Shown in pieces: positions 27,261-47,005 of a stretch of DNA of 64,000 nt (within the stretch, counting starts at the first letter, position 1; the number at the start of each line of letters is the position of its first letter). The stretch lies in contig CAOJDX010000005.1 of the NCBI GenBank assembly GCA_948433435.1, forward strand, positions 1-64,000, in the 5' to 3' direction. Made by a program: the position numbers and the translations under genes. The notes under the pieces were generated by a model. That model did not search any database. It worked only from the letters and a program-made list of their open reading frames with translations, and was not told where the DNA came from. The DNA comes from an uncultured Clostridia bacterium. GTDB lineage: Bacteria > Bacillota_I > Bacilli_A > RF39 > UBA660.

Positions 27261-27623
27261 ATGTTGCTAGGTATTAGATTAAAAGCTTTAAGAGAAGAAA
27301 AAGGGCTTACTCAGGAAAAGCTTGCTAATATGATTAATGTTACAAAATCAACTATTAGTTATTATGAGAATGATGAGAGAGTTCCTACAGTTAGTAATCT
27401 TTGTGAACTTGTTAAAGTGTTTAATGTTAGTTTTGATTATTTAATGGGAAATGATCAATTTGAAATTGCAGAGGATAGTGAAACAGAAAATTATGGAATG
27501 TATATGGCTAAAGAGGAGTTAGAATTTATAAAAGAAATTAGACATTATAGTGACTTTCATAGTGAAGTGATTAAACATCCTAAAAGATGTGCTGAACGTA
27601 TTAATAAGAAACTTTTTAAGTAG
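27261..27623 (+). CDS. XRE-family transcriptional regulator
   Basis: A 120-residue regulator with a Cro/C1 helix-turn-helix at residues 4-62 (LKALREEKGLTQEKLANMINVTKSTISYYENDERVPT). The remaining C-terminal helix region is of no known family. The start follows GAGGTGATGAG. No operator could be identified. It is transcribed alone and ends at a terminator. Confidence 0.85.
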   Translation: MLLGIRLKALREEKGLTQEKLANMINVTKSTISYYENDERVPTVSNLCELVKVFNVSFDYLMGNDQFEIAEDSETENYGMYMAKEELEFIKEIRHYSDFHSEVIKHPKRCAERINKKLFK

Positions 27624-27639
27624 CTATCTATATATTTCG

Positions 27640-27667
27640 GAATACTGAATGAGGTATTCTTTTTTTT
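27640..27667 (+). terminator. Terminator of the XRE gene
   Basis: GAATAC pairs with GTATTC across an 8-base loop and is followed by eight T. Confidence 0.8.
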
Positions 27668-27676
27668 GTTAAGATG

Positions 27677-27710
27677 AAAAATACAGTACTTGCATTACCT
27701 GTATTTTTTT
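27677..27710. terminator. Second hairpin terminator, possibly bidirectional
   Basis: AAAAATACAG pairs with CTGTATTTTT over a 12-base loop, with A and T tracts outside. Together with the preceding terminator it isolates the downstream poly-G promoter from read-through. Confidence 0.6.
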
Positions 27711-27793: not shown

Positions 27794-27826
27794 TTGACAA
27801 AATGACCTGGGGGGGGGGGGTAGAAT
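27794..27826 (+). promoter_or_regulatory. Promoter with 12-G tract in its spacer
   Basis: TTGACA (27794-27799) and TAGAAT (27821-27826) are separated by 21 bp, of which the last 12 are all G (27809-27820). The spacer is 4 bp above the 17-bp optimum, so loss of G residues by slippage would strengthen the promoter. Confidence 0.55.
27809..27820. repeat. Homopolymeric G12 tract
   Basis: Twelve consecutive G in a region that is otherwise strongly AT-rich. It is the only such tract noticed in the window and a classic slippage-prone sequence. Confidence 0.9.
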
Positions 27827-27859
27827 AGAAATATAAAGATAAAATAAAGGAGTAAAAGT

Positions 27860-29690
27860 ATGGAAGAAAAATAAAGAAATCATTACAGTAGGTTTAGTTT
27901 TATTACTAGTAGTGATGATTGTGGGAGTAGGTTATGCCGCCTTTACTTTTAGTAAAACGGGTGTAACAGAGAATGCCATCACAACGAGTGCTGTTACGAT
28001 GATCTATACAGAAGGGGATAATCAAATCAGTATTAACAATGCAGTTCCGATAACAGAAGAAGTCGGGAAGACATTAAGTGATGAAAACTATGTCTTTGAT
28101 TTTACGATTAATATTAAAACAGGACCAAAGATGCCTATTTCTTATGAGGTAACAGCCGTAAAAGATGCCTCATCAACTATGGGCAATGAAGATGTTAGAT
28201 TGTATTTACAAAAGTCTTTAGATGGTACCAATTATAATGATGAAGTATTAGAACCAAGTCCCTATACACCATTAGATGTTGATGATGAGTTTGGAGCAAA
28301 AGCAGGAGAAATGGTCATGGATGTAGGAACAGTAAGTGAGAAAGTAACCTATTATTACCGATTAAGAATGTGGGTAGATTCAAGTTACGAATTAAGTAGT
28401 GAAGCTAAAAGCTTTACTGTAAAAGTTAATGTTTATGGTAAAGAAGGAGGATATACTTCAAGTGGAACCCCTAATCCTCCAGAGTTAGTAGGAGATATGA
28501 TTCCTGTTATTTATGATGATGCAAGTAATACCTGGGTAAAGTCTAGTACATCTAAAGGCAAGTGGTATAACTATGATAAACAGATGTGGGCTAATGCCGT
28601 AACAATAAAAGATACTACCAAAAGAGCAACTTATAAAAATGCAGAAGTAGGAACTTCAATACCAATTGAGGATATAAATACTTTTATGGTTTGGATACCA
28701 AGATATAGTTATACCTTAGGAAATACCTATGGTTATCAAATAGAGGGAGCAGAAACACCAAGTCAGAAAACCCCAGGAGCCTTTAATATTAAGTTTGTTG
28801 ATAAAAATACTATAGATATGGGAAGTGGAAAGTATACAGGAGATAAACCAGATAATTATTTTACACCAAGCTCTTTTTGTTGGGGAGATACCTGTGATGA
28901 TGAGGCAACAAGAGAAGATGCTGGAAACAAGGAGTTATCTGGGATATGGGTATCTAAATTTGAAATAACTGGAACAAGATTTGCTTATAATGATATGTCT
29001 TCTATTCCTAATCAGGTGAGTCTTCGTGATGAGTTGAATTATTTTTTTGAAAATATTCTGACATATATGAACAATGAAAATGGTTTAACTAATTATGGCT
29101 TTAGTGGCAACTATGATACACATATGATTAAAAATACTGAATGGGGAGCGATGGCTTATCTTTCTCAAAGTAAATACGGAAAATATGGAAATAAAAATTA
29201 TAGTGGAGAAAATAAGGAAATTTATCAAAATAAATCCAGTGAATTTATAACGGGAAGTAGTAATGGAACTCCATGTACAGATGTGATCAATACACAAGTA
29301 GCATATAATGTAAAGGGAGCTGGAACAGGTGCTTCTACAACTGGGACAATTTATGGAATTTATGATACATCAGGTGGAAGGCTTGAGGTTGTAATGGCGA
29401 ATCATGAAAATAAAAATAACTATTTAGGAGATTTAATAATTCCTGGTGTTAGATATTATAATTTATATACTGGACAAACTTCTGGTATTAAGGGAGATGC
29501 TATGATGCGAGATGGTACTTACGGTTGGTTTGTTGATAGAAGCTATCAAGATTATATGTTCGAGGATGGTGAGAATTGGTTTTTGCGAAGTGGTAATTAT
29601 GATAATGCTTTTGGAAATATATTTTCTTTTTATTCAACTCAAATATGGGGTGGCCAAGAAAGTACTCGTTTTGTAGTTGCAACTTGGTAA
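27860..29690 (+). pseudogene. TasA-like/FGE-like surface protein, frameshifted after its start codon
   Basis: The open frame encodes about 600 residues but has no usable start. An ATG at 27860 with ribosome site AAAGGAG runs into a stop after four codons (MEEK). One base fewer in the A5 tract at 27867-27871 would join it to the main frame (ENKEIITVGLVLLLVVMIVG). The product would have an N-terminal hydrophobic helix, a TasA/camelysin-like beta domain (TENAITTSAVTMIYTEGDN), and a C-terminal region with patterns of the formylglycine-enzyme/C-lectin fold (FMVWIPRYSY, GIWVSKFEITG, IKNTEWGAMAYLSQSKYG, WFLRSGNYDNAFG). Without the shift a GTG at 27912 could start it, but that would split the membrane helix. 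It may be a phase-off state, a true pseudogene or an assembly error. Confidence 0.6.
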
Positions 29691-32039: not shown

Positions 32040-34064
32040 ATGGCAAAAAAAGTTAGTAGTATAGAAGAACAAATAGAAGATTGGGCTAAAAGACAATTAG
32101 GTAATGCAAAATATTTTACCAAAACCGAAATAATTAATCAGGAAATAGATAATGCATTAGAAAAAGCTCCCTCAAAAAATGGTGGCAATGGAGGAAATTA
32201 TCCTGATATCAAACTTTTTTTAAATACAAAAGAGTTAAAGTATATTCCAGTCATGATTGAGGTAAAGGGTACTAAGGGGAAATTCATGAAATTAAACCCT
32301 AACGGAGAAATTGATAATAAGTTAAAAGATGGAACTCCCAACTTTAGGAATATTAATAATTATGCTGTTAATGGTGCTATTCATTATGGTAAAGCTATTA
32401 TAGATTATACAGATAGTTATAAAAATGTAATATCAATAGGCATAAATGGTTATTACGAAGGGGCAGATCTCATAGTAGAAATAGGGGCATATTATATTTC
32501 TGAAGAAAACTACTGTATTCCCAAATTGATAGGAAGTTACTCTGATCTTTCATTCTTATGGCCAGATAATTGGGAATACCTATTAGAAGAGATCAAAAAA
32601 TTAAACTTAACTCCAGAAGAAATAGAATTAAAGGCAAAAGAAGTAGAAAATGATATCGAAATTAAACTGAAAAAATTGAATCAAACAATGCAAGATGATT
32701 TTAAAATATCTGTAAATTGGAGAGTAGAATTAGTAACAGGGCTAATCATGGCAGGACTAGGATTTGCTGATAAAATAACCCCTCTGGAAACAAGAGACTT
32801 AAAAGGAGAGGATGGCCTTGAGTCAAATGATGGAGTAATTGTCATTAATAAGATTAATTCCTTTTTAGCGAAACGTGAGTTACCAGAAGAAAAAAGAAAA
32901 ATGATTATTAATGATTTAGAAAAAGTATTTATTCATTCAAATATCAGTAAACCTATAAGTGGAGAAAGTCAAATTAAAAAAGTTTATGCTATTATAGAAA
33001 AAGAAATTATGCCAATTTTTAAATCAGCTAAACATTTAGATTTTACAGGAAGGTTATTTAATGTTTTAAATGCATGGGTAGATATTCCAGATAGCGATAA
33101 AAATGATGTTGTTTTAACCCCAAGATATGTTACTGAATTAATGGCTAGAATTGCTCAAGTTAATATGGATAGTTATGTTTGGGATTATGCAGCAGGAACT
33201 GCAGGATTTTTAATTTCTTCAATGAAGTTAATGATTGAAGATGCAAAAAAGAGAATAAAAAGTCCTGAAAAGTTAAGAAAAAAAATATCAGATATTAAGC
33301 ATTATCAACTATTAGGGGTTGAAAAACGTTCGGATATTTATCTGCTTGCCGTTTTAAATATGATTTTAATGGATGGATCTTCTAATATTATTCATAAAGA
33401 TAGTTTACTTGAGTTTGATGGAAAATATGAACAAGGAGAAAGAAAAGGAGAAAAATTTCCTGCTGACATATTTTTATTAAATCCCCCTTACTCAACCTCA
33501 GGAAAAGGTTTAATATTTGTAGAAAAAGCTTTAAGTAGAATGACAACAGGTAGAGCTGTTATCTTAATTCAAGAAAACGCAGGTAGTACAAATGGACAAC
33601 CTTATACGGAAAGATTACTCCAAAAGCACACTCTAATTGCCAGTATTCATATGGCAGATATATTTAAGGGAAAGGCAGGAGTACAAACAGCCATATATGC
33701 TTTTGATATAGGAAAACCTCATAATGAAAAGCAACTCGTTAAATTTATCGATTTTACAAATGATGGTTATTCAAGACAAAATCGAAGAAAATCTGGACAA
33801 GATGTCAACCTAAAAAATACTGATCATGCTTTAGAAAGATATAATGAAATTGTTAATCTAGTCCTATATGGTAAGAAATATCTAAATTATATTGCCGAAG
33901 AATGTTATGTAGAAGACACAATTTCCTTAAAAGGAGATGATTGGACATTTTCTCAACATAAAATAATTGATCCTATTCCTAAAGAAAAAGATTTTCAAGG
34001 TACAATAAAAGACTATTTAAGTTGGAAAGTATCAGCGATTATTAAAGGTGATCTTGATGACTAA
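32040..34064 (+). CDS. BcgI-like fused nuclease-adenine methyltransferase (RM subunit)
   Basis: A 674-residue protein that combines cutting and methylation. The N-terminus holds a PD-(D/E)xK candidate: PD at 55-56 and EVK at 74-76. A helical region follows, then an HsdM-type N6-adenine methyltransferase with AdoMet motif WDYAAGTAGFL near 380 and catalytic NPPY near 482. This layout plus a separate two-domain specificity subunit is that of type IIB BcgI (subunits A and B), which cuts on both sides of its site. The recognition sequence is unknown. The ribosome site is AAAAAGGAGAG. It lies between two IS remnants, which suggests horizontal gain. Confidence 0.82.
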   Translation: MAKKVSSIEEQIEDWAKRQLGNAKYFTKTEIINQEIDNALEKAPSKNGGNGGNYPDIKLFLNTKELKYIPVMIEVKGTKGKFMKLNPNGEIDNKLKDGTPNFRNINNYAVNGAIHYGKAIIDYTDSYKNVISIGINGYYEGADLIVEIGAYYISEENYCIPKLIGSYSDLSFLWPDNWEYLLEEIKKLNLTPEEIELKAKEVENDIEIKLKKLNQTMQDDFKISVNWRVELVTGLIMAGLGFADKITPLETRDLKGEDGLESNDGVIVINKINSFLAKRELPEEKRKMIINDLEKVFIHSNISKPISGESQIKKVYAIIEKEIMPIFKSAKHLDFTGRLFNVLNAWVDIPDSDKNDVVLTPRYVTELMARIAQVNMDSYVWDYAAGTAGFLISSMKLMIEDAKKRIKSPEKLRKKISDIKHYQLLGVEKRSDIYLLAVLNMILMDGSSNIIHKDSLLEFDGKYEQGERKGEKFPADIFLLNPPYSTSGKGLIFVEKALSRMTTGRAVILIQENAGSTNGQPYTERLLQKHTLIASIHMADIFKGKAGVQTAIYAFDIGKPHNEKQLVKFIDFTNDGYSRQNRRKSGQDVNLKNTDHALERYNEIVNLVLYGKKYLNYIAEECYVEDTISLKGDDWTFSQHKIIDPIPKEKDFQGTIKDYLSWKVSAIIKGDLDD

Positions 34065-35124
34065 TTATAAAGAGTTTAAAATAGGAGACTTATTTTATAT
34101 TTCAACTGGTAGAGATGTGATCATTAGCCAAACTCAAAAGGGAGATATTCCTCTTATTAGCAATCAACATAGTAATAATGGAATAACAAAATATATTAAA
34201 AGGTTAGATAATAGAGTTTTATATGATCATAAAAAGACAATAGCACTAGCAGATAGAGGAGTTTTTTTAGCTACTTCTCAAAAAAAAGATTTTCATATAG
34301 GAACTAGAGTAAAAGCTTTAACTTTTAAAAGTGGAGAACAAAGTGAAAATGTACGATTATTTTTCGTAACAGCAATTAACAAATTACAAACTCTCTTTGA
34401 AGAATATTTAACGAATGCTACAGATAAACTTCCAAGTCTATCAATTATGCTTCCAATTACTGAAAATGATGGTATTGACTATGAATATATGGAAAAATAT
34501 ATTGAGAAGCAGAAAGAACAGCCAATAGGAAAAGTAAAAAAATATTTAGAACTACATTATAACAATAACTGTCAATTAACAGAAGAAGAAGCAGAGGCTT
34601 TAATGAAATTTCAAAAAGAAGAGGTAATTTATAAAGAATATAAAATTGAAGATTTATTTACCTCTGAAAATGGTGATACAGATATACAACAAATTCATCT
34701 TAATAATAAAGGAAATTATATAGTAAGTGCTGGTGAACAAAACAATGGTATTATAGGTAAAAGCGATATTCCAGCAAAAGTTTTTGATGCAGATACGATT
34801 ACAATAGATATGTTTGGTATTCCTAATTTTAGAGATTATCAATATAAAATGGTTACACATGCTAGAGTCTTTTCTTTAAAATATAAAGAAAAAAAATTAA
34901 CCATTGAAGAAGGTATATATTTAACCAGTCAATTTCAATATTTTAAACAAATATACTTTTATTCTAATATGGCAAGTTGGGAAAAAATAAAAGATAAATT
35001 TATTAGATTACCAATTACTGTAGAGGGAGAAATTGATTATCAATTTATCAATAACTTTATAAAGGCTGAAGAAAAAATAATCATAAAAAAAATAATTGAT
35101 TATAAGGAAGAGGCAAGTGACTAG
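34057..35124 (+). CDS. Specificity subunit of the BcgI-like system
   Basis: A 355-residue S-type subunit with two target-recognition half-domains that begin alike: YKEFKIGDLFYISTGRD near residue 4 and YKEYKIEDLFTSENGD near 195. Each ends with a hydrophobic LPI strand and helix (SIMLPITENDGIDYEYMEKYI, FIRLPITVEGEIDYQFINNFI), which is typical of HsdS/BcgI-B proteins that read a bipartite DNA site. It overlaps the RM gene by 8 bases; the ATG follows AAAGGTGATCTTG. Confidence 0.82.
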   Translation: MTNYKEFKIGDLFYISTGRDVIISQTQKGDIPLISNQHSNNGITKYIKRLDNRVLYDHKKTIALADRGVFLATSQKKDFHIGTRVKALTFKSGEQSENVRLFFVTAINKLQTLFEEYLTNATDKLPSLSIMLPITENDGIDYEYMEKYIEKQKEQPIGKVKKYLELHYNNNCQLTEEEAEALMKFQKEEVIYKEYKIEDLFTSENGDTDIQQIHLNNKGNYIVSAGEQNNGIIGKSDIPAKVFDADTITIDMFGIPNFRDYQYKMVTHARVFSLKYKEKKLTIEEGIYLTSQFQYFKQIYFYSNMASWEKIKDKFIRLPITVEGEIDYQFINNFIKAEEKIIIKKIIDYKEEASD

Positions 35125-35407: not shown

Positions 35408-35464
35408 TGATTTATAAGGATATAGTGGGATATTACTAGTATGAGTTGTATGATGGTGGTAATT

Positions 35465-38400
35465 ATGAAGAATCAATTTAAAAATTATATTATTCATAGT
35501 GCATTAGGAATTATAATCTTTCTAATGGTTTTTTTGCCTTCTATTAATGTTTTTGCAGTTCAAGAGTCATTTACTTATCCATATACTGGTGAATATCAAG
35601 AGTTTATTGTTCCTGTAAGTTCTAAATATCGTATTCAATTATGGGGTGCCCAGGGAGGAGATTATGATTCTTCTTTATTAGGAGGACTTGGTGGTTATAC
35701 TGAAGGGGAAATTAATTTATTAAAAGGAACAAAACTATATATATATGTTGGTGGACAAGCTAGTAGTAGTCAAACTAATTTATATGGCGGTTGGAATGGT
35801 GGAGGAGACGTTCCAGCGGGAAAAGACAAAGATGGTCGAGCAGGAGGAGGAGCTACGGATATTAGAACTGTTCCTACTACTTCTAAAACAACTTGGAATT
35901 CTCCTGAATCGTTGGCGTCTAGAATTATGGTTGCAGCTGGTGGAGGAGGAGCAGCTTATGAGTCTACTGCCACATGGCGAAGTGATGGTGGGCCTGCGGG
36001 AGGCCTTCTTGGCTATAATCCTCTTTCTATGGGAAGTAGTGCTAGATCAAACTATGGTACAGGTGGTAGTCAAATAAAGGGTGGATATGCAGTAAATGCC
36101 TCAACTACAGCAGTTGCTCTTGGAACCTTTGGAAAAGGTGGACGTGGAATTAGCACCGATGGTGGATCTGGCGGCGGCGGCGGCTGGTTCGGTGGTGGCG
36201 GTAGTAATATTTGTTCCGGAGGTGGAGGAGGAAGTTCCTATATTTCTGGACATGATGGTTGTATTGCTGTAACTAGTAAAGGAAGTACTATTGATACTAC
36301 TGAAGTGGTTGAACATCAGTCTTATTCTTGGACTGGATATACTTTTGATCATACTAAGATTGTTGATGGAACAGGTTATGAATGGACCGATGCAAAGGGA
36401 AATTTAATCAATCAACCTACACAAAATAATTTAAACTCACAAAAAGGGAATTATGGAAATGGTTTTGCTAGAATTACTTCCTTAAGAGAATTATATACAG
36501 ATAATACGTTGAAAAGTATTACTTTTGATAAGGGAGAATTGACGCCTACCTTCTCAGCAGAACAATTAGAGTATGATCTAATTCTTGATACATATGACAC
36601 AGAGGTAGAAATTAAAGCAGAAGTCAATGAAGAACATGCTACTGTTTCAGGAGAGGGAAAGTATACTGTTAAATATAGAGAAACAAAAACAGTAAATTTG
36701 GTTGTTACTAGTGAAAGTGGTGATATTCAAATTTATACTGTTAATCTTAAAAGAAAAGGACTACCTGAAGGAGAACATAACACTAAACTTGCAGAGTTAG
36801 AGTTATATGGAGAAAGTGCAGAATTATATGAAATTGCTCCAGAATTTAAAAGTGAAGTAACTAATTATACAATTGATTTAGGATATAATACTTTAGAACT
36901 TTTCTTAACGGCTGTAGCTTATGATTATGATGCTACTGTGACAATTGAAGGGAAAGATTTAATTCTTGATAGTGAGGGGGATATTACTATTACAGTGTCT
37001 GCTCCTAATTGTACAGATACCATTTATTCTATTCATTATCGAAAGGGTTCTAAACCTGAGGCAGTTTATGAATACAATGCTATTGGAGATTATCAAACTT
37101 TCATTGCTCCGACTAGGGGAATTTATAAATTTGAACTTTGGGGAAGTCAAGGTTCAAGTTCTGGAAAACCTGGAGGTCTTGGAGCTTATACCAGTGGAAA
37201 TATTATCTTAAATTCTAATGAAGCAGTATATATTTATGTTGGTGATACAGTTGCACATGGTGCTTCCTTTAATGGAGGAGGTTTAGGAAAAGTAATGGGC
37301 TTTAGTGGAGGAGGAGCTACAGATGTTCGCCTAACGCCTGGAGCCTGGAATAATTTTGATTCCTTGAAGAGTCGTATTATGGTTGCTGCCGGAGGTGGTG
37401 GCGCTGAAGCTTGGTCTGGTCAAAGTCATGGTGGAGCTGCAGGTGGACTTTATTCTTATGATGTTCCTTATTATGCTAGTGGCTCTTGGGCATATACTTT
37501 AAATACTGGTGCTACACAGATAGCAGGTGGTAAAGGAATGAATGGTAAAAATCAATCTGGTGCTTCTGGTAGTTTTGGTATTGGTGGACGTGGAGGTCCA
37601 ACATCATATGGTGGTGGCGGCGGTGGCGGCTACTATGGTGGAGCTGGCGGCGGTGACGGTGGTCCAATGACTTCTGGTGGAAGTGGTGGAAGTTCTTATA
37701 TTTCTGGCCACCCAGGTGTTGATTCTATTGATCAAGCATCAACTGCTAGTAATATTCAACATACAGGTAGTGAAATTCATTATTCTAATAAAAAATTTAC
37801 CAATACCGTTATGATTGATGGAATGGGTTATCAATGGATTAATGCGAAATCAAAGCCAAGTCATAGTGGACAGGCAAGTAATGGTTCCCATGTTACTTTA
37901 ACTAATGGAGAATATACAGGTCAACCAGATAAAAATGGAGATATTAAAACAGGTCATGAAGGTAATGGTTTTGCTAGAATTACACCTCTTGCATCTAAAT
38001 CAGAAAATAATTATTTACAAGATATTGTTGCTAGTAGTGGGACATTATCCCCTAGTTTTTCTTCTACTGTTTATGATTACGATTTAGTTCTTGATAAGGA
38101 AGTAAGAGAAGTTGATATAGAGGCTATTTTATCTGATCAAAGTGCTACTGTCTCAGGAGGGGGACATTATAAAGTAAAATATAAGAATCCTGTGCAGGTA
38201 GAATTTATTGTTACTAGTGAAAGTGGAGATATTAGAACTTATACTGTTCAGATTAAAAGAAATGAATTAGCTGAAAATGAGCATTCTTCAAAATTAGCTG
38301 ATTTAGATTTTAAAGTTGATCAAGATGATGTAGAACCTATTTTTCAACCAATCTTTCATTCTAATGTTTTGGAATATGATATTGTTATTTCTCCTAATAT

Positions 38401-41400
38401 GATTTATTTAGATGTGGAAGCTATTCCATTTGATGATGAGGCTACAGTTAAGGTTGAAGGTGCTGGTATGATTATTGAAGATGCTGGTGAAATTGTCATT
38501 ACGATTAGTGAACCGCATGAAGCTGATACTGTTTACATAATTCGATATACGAGAGAGGAATTACCAGAAGAAGAATATCATTATAATTATACGGGAGATT
38601 ATCAAACTTTTATTGCTCCATTAAGGGGAAAATATCGTTTTGAACTTTGGGGAAGTCAAGGAGCTAGTGCTAGTGTGAAACCTGGTGGACTTGGTTCTTA
38701 TACTAAAGGAGATATTCTCTTAGAAAAAGGAGAAAAGTTATATATTTATGTAGGGAATAGTCGTCTACATGAGGTTTCCTTCAATGGAGGAGGCTTAGGA
38801 AAAGTTAATGCTTTTAGTGGAGGAGGAGCGACAGATGTTCGTCTAGTTAGTGGTCCATGGAATGATTTCAATTCAATTAAGAGTCGTATTATGGTTGCTG
38901 CTGGAGGAGGAGGAGCTGAATCATGGAATGGACAGAGCCGAGGAGGAGCTGGTGGTGGACTTTACTCATATGATGTTCCATACTTCTCTAGTGGTTCATG
39001 GAGTTATACGTTAAATACAGGTTCTACACAAACATCAGGTGGAGCTGGAATGGTTGGTCGATATCAAAGTGGATCTCCTGGTACTTTTGGTGCCGGAGGT
39101 GCTGGAGGACCTTCTTCTTATGGAGGCGGTGGTGGCGGTGGCTACTACGGTGGAGCTGGAGGAGGAGACGGTGGTCCGATGACTTCAGGAGGTGCTGGAG
39201 GAAGTTCTTATATTTCTGGACACCCAGGAGTTAACTCTATTGCTGAGGCATCTACTCCAGCCAATATTATTCATACTGGTGATATGATTCATTATTCCAC
39301 TAAATATTTTACGAATACGGTGATGATTGATGGTATGGGCTATAGTTGGATAGAAGCTACTTCTGAACCAAAGTATACTGCCAATAAAAATAATGGACTT
39401 TCTGTTACTTTAGATACTGGTGAATATACTGGACAACCTACTGTTAAAAATGATGGTATTCAAACTGGAAAAGAAGGTGTTGGCTATGCTAAAGTTACAC
39501 CATTATTCCAATCTAAAAATAACTATTTATTAAATCTAAAAACAAACTATGGAATATTTGATAAAGAATTTAATCCATTTGATACAGAATATACGTTAAC
39601 TTTGGATAAATATGAACAACATTTTACTTTAACTGGAGAGACTGCAGATAAAAATGCTGTAGTTGTTGGTTTAGGTAAATATGAAATGCATTTAGGAGAA
39701 GTTAGATATGTTAACATTCATGTTACTGCTCCTAATGGAGATATTCGTACCTATCGTATTAAAGTAGTAAGGGGAAATTTAGCTGATGGAGAACATTCTA
39801 CTAAACTAGTTTCTTTAAAAATCAATAAAAATAAATTTGCTCTTAATCCAGAATTTATCAGTATTGAAACAAATTATCGATTAGAAGTTCCTTATAGCAC
39901 AATGGTTCTTGATGTAGAGGCAATTCCTTATGATCAAACGGCAACAATTAAAATTGAAGGAAATGGATATTTGAAAAAAGATGGAGAGAATATTGTAAAA
40001 GTTACTATTACTCATCCAGAAGTTGAATCTACTGTTTATGAGGTTGTTGTTACTCGTGAAGAAGATGTAGAAGGTACTGTTTCTGAGTTTGCTTGTGTAA
40101 ATGGATATCAAAAATTTGTTGCTCCAGGAAGTACTTATTATAAGACGCAATTATGGGGAGCTGGAGGTGGCTTTGGTCGAACTGACTGGGCTTTAAGATA
40201 TCGTGGTGGAAATGGAGCTTATACAGAGGGAGAAATTTATCTTTCAAAAGGTCAAGAAGTATATGTTTATGTTGGTTGTACTGGAGAAGCTGGTGGTACC
40301 GAACTAAGTCATATTGGAGGTGCTGGTGGCTTTAATGGTGGAGCTAATGGAGGTAATGATGCTAATAGGGATAGTGCTCCTGAACCCGGAGGTGGGGGAG
40401 GAGGAGCTACTGATATTAGACTTACTCCTACTTCAAAAACGTCTGTTTGGAATGAGTTTAACTCTTTAAAAAGCCGTATTATGGTTGCTGCTGGAGGAGG
40501 TGGCGGAGCATATTATGGCATTGGAGGTGCTGGAGGTACTCTAGAAGGACTTTTGGGTTATGGAAATAAGAGTATTCCGACACAAACAAATGGTTATGCC
40601 TTTGGCTATGGAATGGCAGGTCTTGCTAACTCCATTGGTTCTGGCGGAGCTGGTGGTGGTTATTTTGGAGGATTTTCTGCTACTGATTATTCTGGAGGCG
40701 GAGGAAGTTCTTTCGTTTCTGGATGTGAAAATTGTGTTGCTATTGATGCAAATTCAACAGCTAATAACATCTTGATGAGTGCTCAAAATAAACATTATTC
40801 TAACTATGTCTTTGATAAAATTACAATGGCCAGTGGAGAAGAGACACAACCTAATCCAAATGGTGGTTATCAAACGGGAAATGCTGGAGATGGATATGCG
40901 ATTATTACTGCAGCTAAGGCTAGATCAGAAAATAATTTCTTACAAAATATTACTGTTGATAAGGGTGAACTTGTTCCTGAGTTTGACTTGTTAACGAAGG
41001 AATATACTGTAGAGGTTGATCCTGATGATACTTCTATTACTATAGATGCTACTTTAGATGATGAGACGGCGATTATGACAGGTACAGGTACTTTTGATGT
41101 GGAAGCAGGAGAAAATCATTATTCCATTATTGTTACTGCGGAAAATGGTGATATTAGAGTTTATACGGTGACTGTTATTAGAAAAGCATCTAGTACCGCT
41201 AAACCGATTGATATTAAAATTGTCGGATTAGTGCCAGCCTTATGTAGTATCAAAGATGAATATTGTACTTTAGATTCGGAATTTGATCCAGATGTTACTA
41301 CATATCATATGACGGTTCCAAACCGAATCAAACAATTAAGTTTTGAAGTGGAGAAAGCTAATAAATATCAAACGGTTACTGGAGATGAAACTCATTTACT

Positions 41401-44400
41401 AGAACAAGGAGAAAATGAAATTGTCATTGAAGTTACCTCAGAAGATGGAACTAGTACTACTCAATACACTTACTATATTACTCGTGATATGGCGGGAGAT
41501 AATCAGATTGACAACTTGGTAGTTGTTGCTCCGCCAACAGAAATTAATTTCCAACCAGAGATTACAGATTATTATTTCTCTGTTCCCGAGACAACCAGTG
41601 AGCTTGAATTACAGATTGATTTATCAGATAGTAATGCTACTTATGAAGTTGTAGGAAATGAAAATTTTGAACTAGGGCTTAATATAGTTCAAATCGTTGT
41701 TACCGCACAAAATGGTGATATTAAGACTTATACGTTAAATGTTTATCAGGAGCAGAGTGGTAATACATTCTTAAGTAATATTGAGGTTAGTCATGATGGG
41801 GTTAATTATGCCTTAACACCAGAATTTAATAAAGTAATTAGCAATTATATTGTTAATGTACCTAATGAGGTAGACCATGTTGAGATCAGTGTCACTAAAG
41901 AACATAGTTTAACTACAATAACAGGAGATGGTGATGTAGCCTTAATTACTGGAACAAATAAGGTTAATTTGGTTTCTACGGCTAGTGATGGTTCTGTTCA
42001 AATATATGAATTATATATTATTCGGGCAAAATCTTCAGATGCTACTTTAAAAAGTCTAGATGTTTTAGAGGCTAGTTTGGATCCAGAATTTAATAGTGAA
42101 GTAGCAGATTACACTTTGGATGTTCATTCTGGTGTTACTTCCTTAACAATTAAAGCGGTTGTGAATAATCCGAAGGCTACTTATAAAATTAGTGGTAATA
42201 GTGGTTTTGCTTTAGGAGAAAATAAAGTTGTTATTTTGGTAACGGCTGAAGATGGAACGAAAAAGACCTATACGTTAACTGTTAATAAAGTTGCTAGTAG
42301 TAATAATTATTTAAGTAGTCTAGTAATTGATCAATATGATATGGCTAGTATCTTTAATAAAGAAACGGAGGAGTATCATATTGTCTTTGAGGATAGAATT
42401 CCAACAATTAAAGTTAGTGCTACTCCAGAAGATAAAACGGCTAAGGTTTCTAAAACAGGTATTTATCATATTAAAACGGGAAGTAATAAAGTAGAGGTTA
42501 TTGTTACAGCTGAAGATGGTTCTAAAAGAATTTATACGATAAATATTTTTCAAACAGGAAGTAAGAATAATGACTTAATTTCTTTAGTTACTAGTTCTTC
42601 TAAATCTTTAAGTCCTCCATTTACTAAAACTAATCAGAAATATACATTGGATGTAGATAATCTTGAAGATGAGATTACGGTTATTGGAGTAGCTGAGGAT
42701 AAAAATGCAACAGTAACTGGTAATGGCACTTATCACTTAAATCCTGGAAATAATATTATTTATATTACGGTTACTTCAGAAGAGGGCGAAGAAAAGGTTT
42801 ATGATATTACAGTTAATCGGAAGAAATCTTCTAATGCCAATATTTCCTTAATTATCGCAAAGGAAAGTGTTTTGGATCCTGTTTTCGATCGAGATAAGAC
42901 AGGTACTTATTACTTAAAAGTTTTAGAAGAAGTAACTAGTCTTACTTTAAATATTGAGCTTGAAGATGAGACTGCTAAGTATGAAGTAACAGGAAATGAA
43001 AATTTCCAAATTGGTCATAATACAGTTACTATTACTGTAACGGCTGAAGATGGAACAACGAAGGCTTATGTGTTAGATGTTTTAAGACAAGCAAAAGGAA
43101 CTACTAGTGATAAATTAGAAAATTTAACAGTTAGTGAAGGAATTTTAGATCCAACTTTTGATTCGGAGACTATTTATTATGAGGTTGAAGTTGATTATAA
43201 TACCGACAAAATTACACTAGAAGCTATCGCCGAAGATAAGAATGCGACAGTAGAAGGGCTAGGGGAATATACCTTAGCTTTAGGGAAAAATGTTTTAGGT
43301 ATTTCAGTAACATCGACTGAGGGGGTTGTTCGATATTATCAAGTTGTTGTAACTAGAAACAGAAAAACGGAAGCTAGACTTTCTAGTTTACAAATTACAG
43401 ATTCTACTTTAGATCCTAACTTTGATAAAGATATCTATGAATACCATCTAAAAACTAATTATGATTCTTTAACAATTAAGGCTATTCCTTTGGATAAAGA
43501 TGCTACTTTTGAAATTATTGATAATCATGATTTTGTTGTTGGTCATAATGAGGTTATTATTAGAGTAACTGCTCAAGATGGAAAAACTACTCAGGATTAT
43601 ATCCTTCATGTGGAGAAAGAGAAATCTTTCAATAACAATTTAAAACTTTTAGAAGTTGATGGGTATGAACTTACTCCAGAGTTTTCTAAAACGACAACCG
43701 TCTACCATGTAAATGTAGGACACGATGTGAATAATATTGTGATTCAAGCAGAAGCAGAAGATAATAAGGCCATGGTAGCTGGAGATGGAACCATTGATTT
43801 AAATATGGGTGATAATTATATCGATATTATTGTTACTAGTGAAGCTGGAACGAAGAAGGTTTATACTCTAATCGTTAATAGAGAGGCGAATAATAATAAT
43901 TACTTAGCTTCTTTAATGACCTCAGATGGTACTTTAAGTCCTACTTTTGATCAATTAACTAATAATTATAATGTTGAAGTAGAGTATGAGGTAGAGAGTA
44001 TTGTGATTAGTGGAACGCCTGCTGATTCTTTGGCAACAGTTACAGGTCTTCAAAAATATCCATTAAAAGTTGGTGATAATTCTATTTCTATTAGTGTTGT
44101 TGCTGAGGATGGCTCAGTTAATGTTTATAATATTGTTGTAACTAGAAAAAATATTGTTAGTTCCAAATTAAAGAACTTGACTGTTGATTATTATCAATTA
44201 GAAGAAGAGTTCTCTTCGGAATTATTCGATTATACATTAAATATTGATTATGAGGTTCAAAGTCTTAATCTTAATATTGAAACGATAGATAAAAATGCTA
44301 CATATAAAGTTATTGGTAATCACGATTTAGTAGTGGGAATGAATACTATTCAGATTGAGGTTACTGATAGTTTAGGAAATGAGACGACAACTTATACGAT

Positions 44401-47005
44401 TAATGTAAATAAAAAGAATTATAGTAATAATTTCCTTAATTATATTTATCCGAGTGTTGGAGAGTTAAGTCCTATGTTTGCTAAAGAAGTTTTGGCATAT
44501 ACTGTGGAAGTGGAAAATGATGTAACAAGTATTGATATTTTTGCTGAACCTGAGATTACTACGAACACTTTAGAAGGTGTAGGACATTATGAATTGAATT
44601 TAGGAAATAATTTAATTCCTTTAACAGTTACAAGTTCTAATGGTATTTCTAGAGTTTATTATGTTACTGTTATTCGAAAGAAAAGTTCTAGTAATGAATT
44701 AACAAGTTTAACAGTTAAGGCAAATGGAGATCTTCAAACTTTAACTCCTACTTTTGATAAAGCTACTTTAGAATATCAAGTGGAGATTAATGAAGGTGTT
44801 TCTAGTGTTGAATTATTTGCGACTGCATCAGATAATGCTTCGATATCTGGTATAGGATTAAAGAGTGTTCAAGTAGGAGATAATCAGTTTGATATTATTG
44901 TTACTAGCCAATCAGGTGTTGTTAAGACTTATACGGTCCATGTCAAGAGAAGGGCAAGTAGTAATAATCGTCTTTTGAATATTGTTCCTAGTGTTGGAAC
45001 TTTGGATCCAATATTTAGTAGTGAGCAAGGGGAATATTCATTATTATTAGATGCTAGTGCATCAATGTTATCTTTTAATGTTATTACAGAGGATAAATTT
45101 GCTAAGGTAACTGGAATTAGTAGTCAGCTTATTCCAGATGGGGCCTCTACTAGAAATATTATCGTAGAAGCAGAAAATGGAGATATTAAAACTTATACCA
45201 TTAATGTTTATAAAGATAAGATGGATGAAGCTCGACTTACTGATTTAGGAATAGATGGTTATAGCTTTAATGAGACATTTGATCCTGATATTTATCATTA
45301 TACGATTACCTTGCCTCATTCTTATGAGACTATTCTAGCTAGTGATGTTCATGCTGTAGCGAAAGATACAAGAGCGACTGTAGCGAAAACAAGTTCCTTA
45401 TCTTTGTCCACAAAAATGGTGAATATTTATACGGTTGTTGTTACGGCCAAGGATGGTTTTACGAAAAAGACTTATACTATTGAAATTACTAGAGAAAAAG
45501 GTAATGATTCTACTTTGACTAGTTTGTCTTTTGCGGGTGGTGTATTATCTCCAAGTTTTACTTCGAATGATTTAGAATATACTTTAGTATTAAATAAAGA
45601 TGTTTCCCAGATTCAAAAAAGTGATGTAGTAGCGATTCCTACTGATCCAGATGCAACAGTTACTATTCCTGATAACTTTAACTTTACTCCGGAAAACAAT
45701 ATTTATGAAATTGTGGTTGAAAGTGCTGATCGAAAGAGTACGACGACGTATACCATTCACGTTAAACCAAATCAATCAAATATTAATATTTTAGATAGTT
45801 TAGCTATTCATCCAGGAGTTTTAACTCCTAGTTTCGATCCTGATGTTAATCTTTATACAGTTTCTTTAACAGAGGATGTTAGTGAAGTAGAAATAACTGC
45901 AACTGCAGATCCTACTGCGACTATTACTGGTGTTGGAAAACACAGTGTTAAAAGTGGAGAAAATCGTTACGAGATTGTTGTTACGGCGGAGGATGGTAGT
46001 GTCAATACTTATGTTGTTGTAGCGACTAGGGAAAAGTCAACCAATACTAATGTTGTAGATATTATTCCATCAGCTGGATTTTTATCGCCAGAATATAGTA
46101 ATGAAGTAGACACATATTTGGTTGAAGTGGAAGAAGAGGTAACAGAGATTGATTTTGATGTTATTTTGGAAAGTGCTGAAGCTACTGTCAGTGGTGATAA
46201 AGGAAATGTACTTGAATATGGTAACAATACAATTCCTATTGTGATTACAGCTGAAGATGGAACGATCAAAAATATTACTATTCAAGTTATGCGTAATAAA
46301 AAGATAACGAGCATTGCACTGGAAGGACCATTATTTATGGAGGTAGGAGATATTATCACTCTTACACCGACTATTACACCGAGTGATGCTACGAATCAAG
46401 AACTTATTTATGAGAGTGGTGATTCTTCAATTATTAAAGTAGAGGATGGTATTGTATCAGCATTAAGTTTAGGAGATACTACAATTACTGTATCTAGTAA
46501 AAAGTATCCTGATGTTCAAGTTACTATTGATGTAAGTGTTTTAAATCTTAAAATTTCGAGTGATGTTTATGATGTTCGAAGAGATGATGATTTATTCCCT
46601 TATATTATAGGAGCAGAACAGGGTGAGAAACTTGCTGATTTTATGACTAAACTTAATAATAAGAAGGAACTTATTCATTTCTATCATGCTGATGATACAG
46701 AAATTACTGATTTAGAAACTGCTCAAGTTAAAACTGGTGATTATATTACGATTGAGTTTAAAGATAATGTGTATGATCAAGTTTATATCGCTGTTCGTGG
46801 AGATGTGAATGGTGATGGAGAAGTTAATGTTAAAGACTATAATGCTGATGTCAATCATACGTTGAAGAAAGAAATTTTAGAACATTTTTGGTTTTCAGCA
46901 GGTAATGTGGAAGAAGAGGAAGAAGACATTATTAATGTTAAAGATTCAAATAAAATTCAAAATAAGATTTTGAAGAAAATTATTACTCTTAATCCATTTA
47001 AGTAA
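35465..47005 (+). CDS. Giant secreted surface protein: glycine-rich modules, ~26 cadherin-like repeats, dockerin
   Basis: A 3846-residue secreted protein. The signal peptide ends near NVFA (about residue 33). Next come four glycine-rich modules (about nt 35568-36480, 37065-37990, 38572-39510, 40078-40915); the first three are each followed by two cadherin-like beta-sandwich repeats. An unbroken array of about 20 more repeats of about 90 residues follows (40915-46299; hallmark NNYLSSL...SPTF...Y...ATVTG...GxNxIxIxVTAEDGSxKxYT). After these stand one Big_2/Ig-like domain (46300-46545), a spacer module (46546-46795) and a dockerin-like end with calcium loop DVNGDGEVNVKD. There is no LPxTG or membrane anchor, so attachment must come through a partner. 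Repeat counts are by eye. The start at 35465 follows GGTGG. Confidence 0.88.
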   Translation: MKNQFKNYIIHSALGIIIFLMVFLPSINVFAVQESFTYPYTGEYQEFIVPVSSKYRIQLWGAQGGDYDSSLLGGLGGYTEGEINLLKGTKLYIYVGGQASSSQTNLYGGWNGGGDVPAGKDKDGRAGGGATDIRTVPTTSKTTWNSPESLASRIMVAAGGGGAAYESTATWRSDGGPAGGLLGYNPLSMGSSARSNYGTGGSQIKGGYAVNASTTAVALGTFGKGGRGISTDGGSGGGGGWFGGGGSNICSGGGGGSSYISGHDGCIAVTSKGSTIDTTEVVEHQSYSWTGYTFDHTKIVDGTGYEWTDAKGNLINQPTQNNLNSQKGNYGNGFARITSLRELYTDNTLKSITFDKGELTPTFSAEQLEYDLILDTYDTEVEIKAEVNEEHATVSGEGKYTVKYRETKTVNLVVTSESGDIQIYTVNLKRKGLPEGEHNTKLAELELYGESAELYEIAPEFKSEVTNYTIDLGYNTLELFLTAVAYDYDATVTIEGKDLILDSEGDITITVSAPNCTDTIYSIHYRKGSKPEAVYEYNAIGDYQTFIAPTRGIYKFELWGSQGSSSGKPGGLGAYTSGNIILNSNEAVYIYVGDTVAHGASFNGGGLGKVMGFSGGGATDVRLTPGAWNNFDSLKSRIMVAAGGGGAEAWSGQSHGGAAGGLYSYDVPYYASGSWAYTLNTGATQIAGGKGMNGKNQSGASGSFGIGGRGGPTSYGGGGGGGYYGGAGGGDGGPMTSGGSGGSSYISGHPGVDSIDQASTASNIQHTGSEIHYSNKKFTNTVMIDGMGYQWINAKSKPSHSGQASNGSHVTLTNGEYTGQPDKNGDIKTGHEGNGFARITPLASKSENNYLQDIVASSGTLSPSFSSTVYDYDLVLDKEVREVDIEAILSDQSATVSGGGHYKVKYKNPVQVEFIVTSESGDIRTYTVQIKRNELAENEHSSKLADLDFKVDQDDVEPIFQPIFHSNVLEYDIVISPNMIYLDVEAIPFDDEATVKVEGAGMIIEDAGEIVITISEPHEADTVYIIRYTREELPEEEYHYNYTGDYQTFIAPLRGKYRFELWGSQGASASVKPGGLGSYTKGDILLEKGEKLYIYVGNSRLHEVSFNGGGLGKVNAFSGGGATDVRLVSGPWNDFNSIKSRIMVAAGGGGAESWNGQSRGGAGGGLYSYDVPYFSSGSWSYTLNTGSTQTSGGAGMVGRYQSGSPGTFGAGGAGGPSSYGGGGGGGYYGGAGGGDGGPMTSGGAGGSSYISGHPGVNSIAEASTPANIIHTGDMIHYSTKYFTNTVMIDGMGYSWIEATSEPKYTANKNNGLSVTLDTGEYTGQPTVKNDGIQTGKEGVGYAKVTPLFQSKNNYLLNLKTNYGIFDKEFNPFDTEYTLTLDKYEQHFTLTGETADKNAVVVGLGKYEMHLGEVRYVNIHVTAPNGDIRTYRIKVVRGNLADGEHSTKLVSLKINKNKFALNPEFISIETNYRLEVPYSTMVLDVEAIPYDQTATIKIEGNGYLKKDGENIVKVTITHPEVESTVYEVVVTREEDVEGTVSEFACVNGYQKFVAPGSTYYKTQLWGAGGGFGRTDWALRYRGGNGAYTEGEIYLSKGQEVYVYVGCTGEAGGTELSHIGGAGGFNGGANGGNDANRDSAPEPGGGGGGATDIRLTPTSKTSVWNEFNSLKSRIMVAAGGGGGAYYGIGGAGGTLEGLLGYGNKSIPTQTNGYAFGYGMAGLANSIGSGGAGGGYFGGFSATDYSGGGGSSFVSGCENCVAIDANSTANNILMSAQNKHYSNYVFDKITMASGEETQPNPNGGYQTGNAGDGYAIITAAKARSENNFLQNITVDKGELVPEFDLLTKEYTVEVDPDDTSITIDATLDDETAIMTGTGTFDVEAGENHYSIIVTAENGDIRVYTVTVIRKASSTAKPIDIKIVGLVPALCSIKDEYCTLDSEFDPDVTTYHMTVPNRIKQLSFEVEKANKYQTVTGDETHLLEQGENEIVIEVTSEDGTSTTQYTYYITRDMAGDNQIDNLVVVAPPTEINFQPEITDYYFSVPETTSELELQIDLSDSNATYEVVGNENFELGLNIVQIVVTAQNGDIKTYTLNVYQEQSGNTFLSNIEVSHDGVNYALTPEFNKVISNYIVNVPNEVDHVEISVTKEHSLTTITGDGDVALITGTNKVNLVSTASDGSVQIYELYIIRAKSSDATLKSLDVLEASLDPEFNSEVADYTLDVHSGVTSLTIKAVVNNPKATYKISGNSGFALGENKVVILVTAEDGTKKTYTLTVNKVASSNNYLSSLVIDQYDMASIFNKETEEYHIVFEDRIPTIKVSATPEDKTAKVSKTGIYHIKTGSNKVEVIVTAEDGSKRIYTINIFQTGSKNNDLISLVTSSSKSLSPPFTKTNQKYTLDVDNLEDEITVIGVAEDKNATVTGNGTYHLNPGNNIIYITVTSEEGEEKVYDITVNRKKSSNANISLIIAKESVLDPVFDRDKTGTYYLKVLEEVTSLTLNIELEDETAKYEVTGNENFQIGHNTVTITVTAEDGTTKAYVLDVLRQAKGTTSDKLENLTVSEGILDPTFDSETIYYEVEVDYNTDKITLEAIAEDKNATVEGLGEYTLALGKNVLGISVTSTEGVVRYYQVVVTRNRKTEARLSSLQITDSTLDPNFDKDIYEYHLKTNYDSLTIKAIPLDKDATFEIIDNHDFVVGHNEVIIRVTAQDGKTTQDYILHVEKEKSFNNNLKLLEVDGYELTPEFSKTTTVYHVNVGHDVNNIVIQAEAEDNKAMVAGDGTIDLNMGDNYIDIIVTSEAGTKKVYTLIVNREANNNNYLASLMTSDGTLSPTFDQLTNNYNVEVEYEVESIVISGTPADSLATVTGLQKYPLKVGDNSISISVVAEDGSVNVYNIVVTRKNIVSSKLKNLTVDYYQLEEEFSSELFDYTLNIDYEVQSLNLNIETIDKNATYKVIGNHDLVVGMNTIQIEVTDSLGNETTTYTINVNKKNYSNNFLNYIYPSVGELSPMFAKEVLAYTVEVENDVTSIDIFAEPEITTNTLEGVGHYELNLGNNLIPLTVTSSNGISRVYYVTVIRKKSSSNELTSLTVKANGDLQTLTPTFDKATLEYQVEINEGVSSVELFATASDNASISGIGLKSVQVGDNQFDIIVTSQSGVVKTYTVHVKRRASSNNRLLNIVPSVGTLDPIFSSEQGEYSLLLDASASMLSFNVITEDKFAKVTGISSQLIPDGASTRNIIVEAENGDIKTYTINVYKDKMDEARLTDLGIDGYSFNETFDPDIYHYTITLPHSYETILASDVHAVAKDTRATVAKTSSLSLSTKMVNIYTVVVTAKDGFTKKTYTIEITREKGNDSTLTSLSFAGGVLSPSFTSNDLEYTLVLNKDVSQIQKSDVVAIPTDPDATVTIPDNFNFTPENNIYEIVVESADRKSTTTYTIHVKPNQSNINILDSLAIHPGVLTPSFDPDVNLYTVSLTEDVSEVEITATADPTATITGVGKHSVKSGENRYEIVVTAEDGSVNTYVVVATREKSTNTNVVDIIPSAGFLSPEYSNEVDTYLVEVEEEVTEIDFDVILESAEATVSGDKGNVLEYGNNTIPIVITAEDGTIKNITIQVMRNKKITSIALEGPLFMEVGDIITLTPTITPSDATNQELIYESGDSSIIKVEDGIVSALSLGDTTITVSSKKYPDVQVTIDVSVLNLKISSDVYDVRRDDDLFPYIIGAEQGEKLADFMTKLNNKKELIHFYHADDTEITDLETAQVKTGDYITIEFKDNVYDQVYIAVRGDVNGDGEVNVKDYNADVNHTLKKEILEHFWFSAGNVEEEEEDIINVKDSNKIQNKILKKIITLNPFK
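35563..40074 (+). repeat. Three tandem ~1.5-kb super-repeats (glycine-rich + two cadherin-like)
   Basis: Units begin near 35563, 37062 and 38569 and are each about 1.5 kb long. Units 2 and 3 are clearly the closest pair, sharing GGYYGGAGGGDGGPMTSGG and SSYISGHPGV in protein and long matches in DNA. A fourth glycine-rich module follows at about 40075 without the second half of the pattern being preserved. Confidence 0.75.
46796..47002 (+). other. Dockerin-like domain of the first giant protein
   Basis: The first loop DVNGDGEVNVKD has Asp/Asn/Asp/Asp at calcium positions 1, 3, 5 and 12. The second loop is EEEEEDIINVKD, with Glu at 1, 3 and 5, which is unusual. The repeats are followed by short helices (YNADVNHTL, SNKIQNKIL), as in type I dockerins. 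Confidence 0.7.

Follow-up and report, generated by a model that had tools for sequence, protein, structure and literature searches.

Poly-G promoter tracts as probable spacing switches for a family of predicted surface proteins in an uncultured RF39 bacterium

Introduction

A promoter whose spacer ends in twelve consecutive guanines raises the question of whether the number of those guanines sets the transcription of the gene behind it. We examined such a promoter at positions 27794-27826 of a 64,000-nucleotide stretch of DNA from an uncultured RF39 bacterium (GCA_948433435.1, contig CAOJDX010000005.1, positions 1 to 64,000 of the forward strand); the whole of this stretch is referred to as the window. 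To our knowledge, most of the promoter contingency loci described so far belong to pathogens that possess few such genes. An earlier note on this DNA, made from its letters, had proposed that the tract makes the promoter phase variable, and we assessed this proposal in the window, in the remainder of the genome, and among related and unrelated bacteria. From this examination, it was judged likely that predicted membrane-anchored surface proteins of this bacterium undergo slipped-strand phase variation by promoter spacing, with at least eight switches in the genome. The promoter geometry, the paralog set, the length differences between paralogs, the broken frame of the window copy, and the recurrence of the architecture in relatives are directly established.

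Results

The promoter and its surroundings

The promoter was found exactly as the earlier note had described it. On the + strand, a TTGACA -35 hexamer (27794-27799) and a TAGAAT -10 hexamer (27821-27826) enclose a 21-bp spacer, which comprises a fixed part, AAATGACCT (27800-27808), and the G12 tract (27809-27820), the putative slippage switch, whose 3' end adjoins the -10 hexamer. A ribosome binding site, AAGGAG, follows at 27847-27852 (+). The G12 tract is unique in the window (30% G+C), within which no other G or C run of at least eight bases was present.

Upstream of the promoter, and as a separate unit, lies the gene for a 120-aa regulator of the HTH_3 (XRE/Cro-like) type (27261-27623, +; Pfam HTH_3, 3.5e-19). 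Two terminators had been claimed upstream of the promoter, and two hairpins with U tracts do fold there on the + strand, the first of them terminator-like and 3' of the regulator (27639-27667; -7.7 kcal/mol, z -2.1) and the second at 27676-27709 (-8.0 kcal/mol, z -3.2). However, neither was listed by the terminator scan, and G-C pairs are few in both; the pair of upstream terminators is best described as plausible.

Two further regions of the window were noted. The stretch at 32040-35124 carries an N6 DNA methylase gene and then a second gene, whose translation, in our estimation, resembles a restriction specificity subunit. At 35441-47005, a 3854-aa protein is encoded in which about 21 cadherin-like repeats accompany four glycine-rich ALK/LTK-type domains.

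The window gene

The gene behind the promoter carries a broken frame. Its ATG at 27860 is followed by a stop after four codons (MEEK; 27860-27874, +), and comparison with the paralogs located the cause in 8 missing bp, one of the two tandem 8-bp units that the paralogs possess. Past the stop, 608 codons stay open. These include a conserved N-terminal module of approximately 195 aa with a hydrophobic helix and a stalk (27864-28448, +; alignment A1), which is open and out of frame with the ATG, and a variable C-terminal head that differs among the paralogs (28449-29687, +; alignment A1) and gave no Pfam or NCBIfam match. Because the frame is shifted at codon 5, no full-length protein can be translated from the window copy in its assembled form; it is therefore silent, and the state of its promoter is irrelevant. 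The statement that expression hangs on this promoter is not supported in that form, as the promoter is not the sole determinant for this copy. As assembled, the window copy is doubly silent, through its long spacer (21) and through the frame break, and intact paralogs are present at other loci of the genome.

The same observations could be read as those of a dead relic, that is, a decaying pseudogene with a relic promoter that at most supplies head sequences to recombination. The 8-bp loss that breaks the frame at codon 5 fits this explanation, as does the sharp boundary between the conserved stalk and the differing heads, which suggests shuffled segments. However, the remaining 608 codons are free of stops and the -35, -10, and ribosome binding site are intact, from which it follows that the 8-bp loss is recent or itself switchable. 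We regard the relic as possible but rather unlikely.

Poly-G runs in the genome

The genome of 1,474,127 bases contains 11 runs of eight or more Gs, compared to 4.4 expected under a first-order model from the window, and the same count among 25 relatives extended from 0 (8/25) up to 36. The run count alone is modest evidence, while the location of the runs is strong evidence. The earlier note had suggested a search of the genome for other poly-G promoters, and this search bore fruit: 10 of the 11 runs start 8-9 bases past a TTGACA, compared to 0 in this genome for the reversed-pattern control. The eleventh run is located inside the first codons of the C23 gene.

Eight of the 11 runs belong to promoters of one paralogous family, encountered at C1, C3, C5 (the window), C7, C15, C18, C20, and C30, and all eight promoters are oriented toward their gene. 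TTGACA is present in 8/8, the fixed part of the spacer measures 8-9 bases in 8/8, and TAGAAT is present in 7/8, with C18 lacking the first T; the paralogs have the ribosome binding site at a comparable position. In the order given above, the tracts comprise 9, 10, 12, 10, 11, 8, 12, and 13 Gs, as taken from assemblies that may err by a base or so. The corresponding spacers measure 18, 19, 21, 19, 19, 16, 21, and 22 bases (the 16 of C18 being counted with the -10 read as GAGAAT, the first T of TAGAAT having been lost), and 0/8 are at 17. With the tract excluded, the stretch that begins at TTGACA and takes in the first ~200 codons was 78-95% identical in pairwise comparisons of the eight copies. 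The closest pairs, at 95.2, 95.1, and 94.1% identity, have tracts of G12/G10, G12/G9, and G12/G10, which are unequal in every case.

The family thus shares with the tp0126/porA type of switch a homopolymer between a recognisable -35 and -10, and its tract length is unequal among near-identical promoters (8-13 Gs in eight paralogs). The proposal of a phase-variable promoter is borne out by this geometry and by the spread of lengths across the family, and it is weakened at the window copy, where the gene is frame-shifted. A further possibility is that the poly-G is false, as an artefact of sequencing or assembly. Caution over database G-tract lengths is called for in the accessible text of one study (PMC9187656). 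The motif nevertheless occurs at eight loci that differ in their upstream sequence, and the architecture recurs in 34/193 separately assembled genomes; an artefact was considered extremely improbable.

The runs outside the eight family promoters were also characterized. A ninth tract, of G12, precedes a gene of 465 aa whose product begins like a lipoprotein (MKLKESIKKKIGITSLGLGLALILSGC), and the tenth (C14) lies in a promoter that was severed from its gene. The coding run at C23:6784 (L096) is a G11; the paralog whose start it occupies measures 1357 aa and contains Listeria-Bacteroides repeats. The run is in frame as assembled, and the gain or loss of one G closes the frame.

The protein family

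The eight aligned members, window included, possess a near-invariant N-terminus of ~195 residues, ordered as a basic start, a single hydrophobic helix ending in GVSYAAF, and a further conserved stretch. The helix is present across the family, with the window copy itself frame-shifted. Beyond ~195 residues, 4/8 members are alike and 4/8 carry different, shorter C-terminal heads. The paralogs are common in the promoter and N-terminal region and divergent in the remainder, which is the pattern of the Mycoplasma vlp genes.

Matches to the protein were found in 19 of the 40 genomes searched, including 19 matches in the genome itself, 33 in G002, 33 in G011, and 26 in G021. A lipobox was absent from the family N-termini listed (e.g., MEEKKKNKEIITVGLVLLL). 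Searches of Pfam with the window protein and ten paralogs yielded no convincing family except the Listeria-Bacteroides repeats in C23, and neither the window protein nor the C3 paralog matched an NCBIfam family. A PDB profile search returned a single chance-level match, to the membrane helix (E 0.58). A match to Peptidase_M73 (camelysin) in a relative (L367) was sub-threshold (E 0.005) and is given as a lead. Single-sequence structure prediction of the window protein was too poor for use (pLDDT 36). The heads of the family proteins may be reminiscent of C-type-lectin folds.

Interrupted promoters

In two copies of the promoter, an interruption falls precisely on the G run (C3:9130 and C14:13703). 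Together with the duplication of the promoter-stalk cassette, this would fit a tract that is mainly a hot spot for recombination or insertion, at which promoter and gene cassettes are shuffled or interrupted. We consider this very improbable as the main role of the tract, given that the heads diverge only ~600 bp downstream of it and that it adjoins the -10 in genera with otherwise unrelated spacers. A switch of promoter spacing is the preferred reading of the tract.

The interruptions were noted for their own content. At C3:7253-9130 (L094), an insert of ~1.9 kb divides the G tract of a family promoter into G7 + G6. The insert carries genes for a DUF1016/YhcG nuclease and a NUDIX protein, no transposase was seen in it, and its inverted ends (CAGAATAAAGGATATACCCAAAA / TAGAATGAAGTATATACCCAAAA) are similar to the promoter's own -10 region. 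From C14:13703 onward (L095), another family promoter breaks off at its G10 tract, where sequence with a ATATACCCAAAA end begins, as in the C3 insert. Next come a cytosine methylase and, at a greater distance, a diversity-generating retroelement comprising an Avd-like protein, a reverse transcriptase, and a template and variable repeat, between which 9 of 11 differences fall at template A. A contribution of this retroelement to the diversity of the heads was weighed and rejected, as the sole match of its template in a comparison of 17 sequences, family genes included, was to its own variable region.

Tracts in related genomes

In the sister species G002, the family tracts are located in the coding start instead of the promoter. 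There were 29 such tracts of G9 or G10, one further, unrelated row having been excluded. Six of these follow MKKINNCSN (four G9, two G10), while 23 are found in the signal-peptide region MEKRKDILLVIPL... (20 G9, 3 G10). At the three loci examined of the signal-peptide type, both assembled lengths break the frame, and 23/23 of this type therefore appear to be off, if the start is correct. The signal-peptide type of G002 would represent either a wholly silent repertoire or one from which the ON copy is missing.

Other relatives were characterized by different arrangements. Poly-G spacers in G003 precede a different exported-looking family, and the tracts of G008 precede prepilin-like and other genes. 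The 27 tracts of G011 are near-constant in length (one G6, three G7, 21 G8, and two G9) and are arranged as TCATAAATC-G8-TACTTTTA before many genes, upstream of TATAAT and not between a -35 and a -10. This arrangement gives the G8 block of G011 the appearance of a constant regulatory element and not that of a switch.

Breadth across the taxonomic family

We scanned 193 genomes of the taxonomic family for the pattern TTGACA-N(4-14)-G7-N(0-7)-TANNAT, which permits spacers of 11-28. The pattern was encountered in 34 genomes (30/148 genera), with 216 matches in sum (nested matches included) compared to 1 for the reversed pattern. Fourteen genomes contained at least five matches, and the maximum was 33. 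Separate amplification in different genomes is suggested, because the sequence that links TTGACA to the tract varies from genome to genome. To characterize the downstream genes, 40 regions were hand-chosen from the listed places, and the 33 with at least 300 bases downstream were used. A gene with a ribosome site was found within 200 bases in 33/33, and a hydrophobic start in 32/33.

The spacers bear on the claim that the loss of four Gs from the window promoter would restore a 17-bp optimum. The arithmetic is right; however, a spacer of 17 was recorded at only 2 of the 144 places listed, compared to 18-20 at 105/144, with a mode of 19. The 144 are all the distinct places listed from 28 genomes, with nested same-start rows dropped and with the present genome and six further genomes not among them. 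Losing four Gs is accordingly to be treated as a hypothesis on the ON state. Because the spacers cluster at 18-20 and not at 17, most copies look weak or off. Either nearly all copies of the present genome are weak or off, as would suit a repertoire that is silent for the most part, or these bacteria have an optimum above 17.

Some genomes speak against a uniform switch rule, as their tracts are near-constant. These are G011, described above, G140, with G9 in 18/20 listed, and G098, with G8 in 14/16 listed and a spacer of mostly 13. Such constancy, including the 21/27 G8 tracts of G011, would be expected if the tract were a fixed structural or regulator-binding element (a G-rich operator or a quadruplex) whose length is no switch. 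For the window family this was judged improbable: lengths in the same genome extend from 8 to 13 in otherwise similar flanks, the tract adjoins the -10, and the spacers group near promoter spacing.

Discussion

The proposed switch

Our preferred reading, a switch by promoter spacing, would operate as follows. The G12 run would act as the contingency tract of a promoter of the sigma-70 type, and replication slippage would add Gs to it or remove them. A changed number of Gs would alter the distance and the helical phase between -35 and -10, and the transcription of the downstream membrane-anchored surface protein would probably rise or fall randomly from one cell to the next. The surface exposure of the family proteins is itself predicted. 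With at least eight such switches, each before a paralog with the common promoter and N-terminal stalk and many with different heads, cells would express different subsets. The selecting force may be immunity, phage, or adhesion.

On a larger scale, it seems probable, though less so than the switch itself, that this uncultured Bacilli-like family has repeatedly and independently built genome-scale poly-G contingency systems. In each genus concerned, a different TTGACA-spacer-Gn-TANNAT promoter would have been multiplied (up to 33 per genome) before membrane-anchored surface proteins, of which some would have heads that can be exchanged. The switch would also have moved, inside a single genus, between the promoter spacer and the signal-peptide coding sequence, and the 18-20 spacers would mark a mostly silent repertoire from which few members are expressed at once.

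Comparison with known systems

The mechanism is already known, and its setting here is apparently new, large-scale, and often re-evolved. Neisseria porA and opc are single genes, unlike a paralog set with one common promoter. The likeness to N. meningitidis porA lies in the G tract within the -35/-10 spacer, which alters the spacing there, and the likeness to Treponema pallidum lies in the poly-G promoters of paralogous or outer-membrane protein genes (tp0126 and tprE/G/J/L). In T. pallidum, the tp0126 poly-G lies between -35 and -10 with expression best at 17, and transcription of tprE, G, and J occurs when the tract has no more than eight Gs, as far as the accessible text of the source describes these systems (PMC7864442). 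Unlike this spirochaete pathogen, the present host is an uncultured, AT-rich bacterium with a small genome, and its family differs through the common stalk with differing heads, the tract directly at the -10, and the placement of the tract within the coding start in a sister species.

The vlp genes of Mycoplasma hyorhinis are likewise a multigene surface family with a homopolymer in the promoter region of each gene, according to the accessible part of PMC10502178. The vlp tracts are poly-A and the products lipoproteins, whereas the present tracts are poly-G and the N-termini listed have no lipobox. Among gut commensals, Bifidobacterium breve switches its sortase-pilus surface structures by G-tract slippage, as the accessible text of PMC9187656 describes. 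The B. breve tract lies in coding sequence, as in the G002 and C23 copies, while that of the window lies in the promoter instead. Homopolymers in coding genes are treated as a general mechanism in the accessible part of PMC2831843.

A literature search for RF39 phase variation, or for slipped-strand mispairing in metagenome-assembled genomes, found no papers, with subscription papers mostly outside its range. A search of titles and abstract starts found no description of the window's clade, which is not to say that one is absent from print. Should the tracts vary in reads, these uncultured bacteria would be seen to carry large sets of poly-G switches, and the roles of immune pressure, phage, and adhesion outside pathogens would become testable in public metagenome reads, culture-free and locus by locus.

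Poly-G promoters in other bacteria

A scan of viral contigs for the pattern gave 0 matches. The wider bacterial scan yielded at least 117 stretches, with 80 loci (L113-L192) among the matches listed. At these 80 loci, a gene with a ribosome site was found within 200 bases downstream of 60 of the 69 tracts with room, compared to 850 of 3200 random positions, and 46 of the 60 genes had a hydrophobic start, compared to 145 of 850 at random positions. The scan is silent on spacer preference, because its pattern allowed only spacers of 14-19. The listed loci were derived from Clostridia, Treponema, Saccharibacteria, Streptobacillus, Streptococcus suis, and others, and they encode mostly exported-looking proteins.
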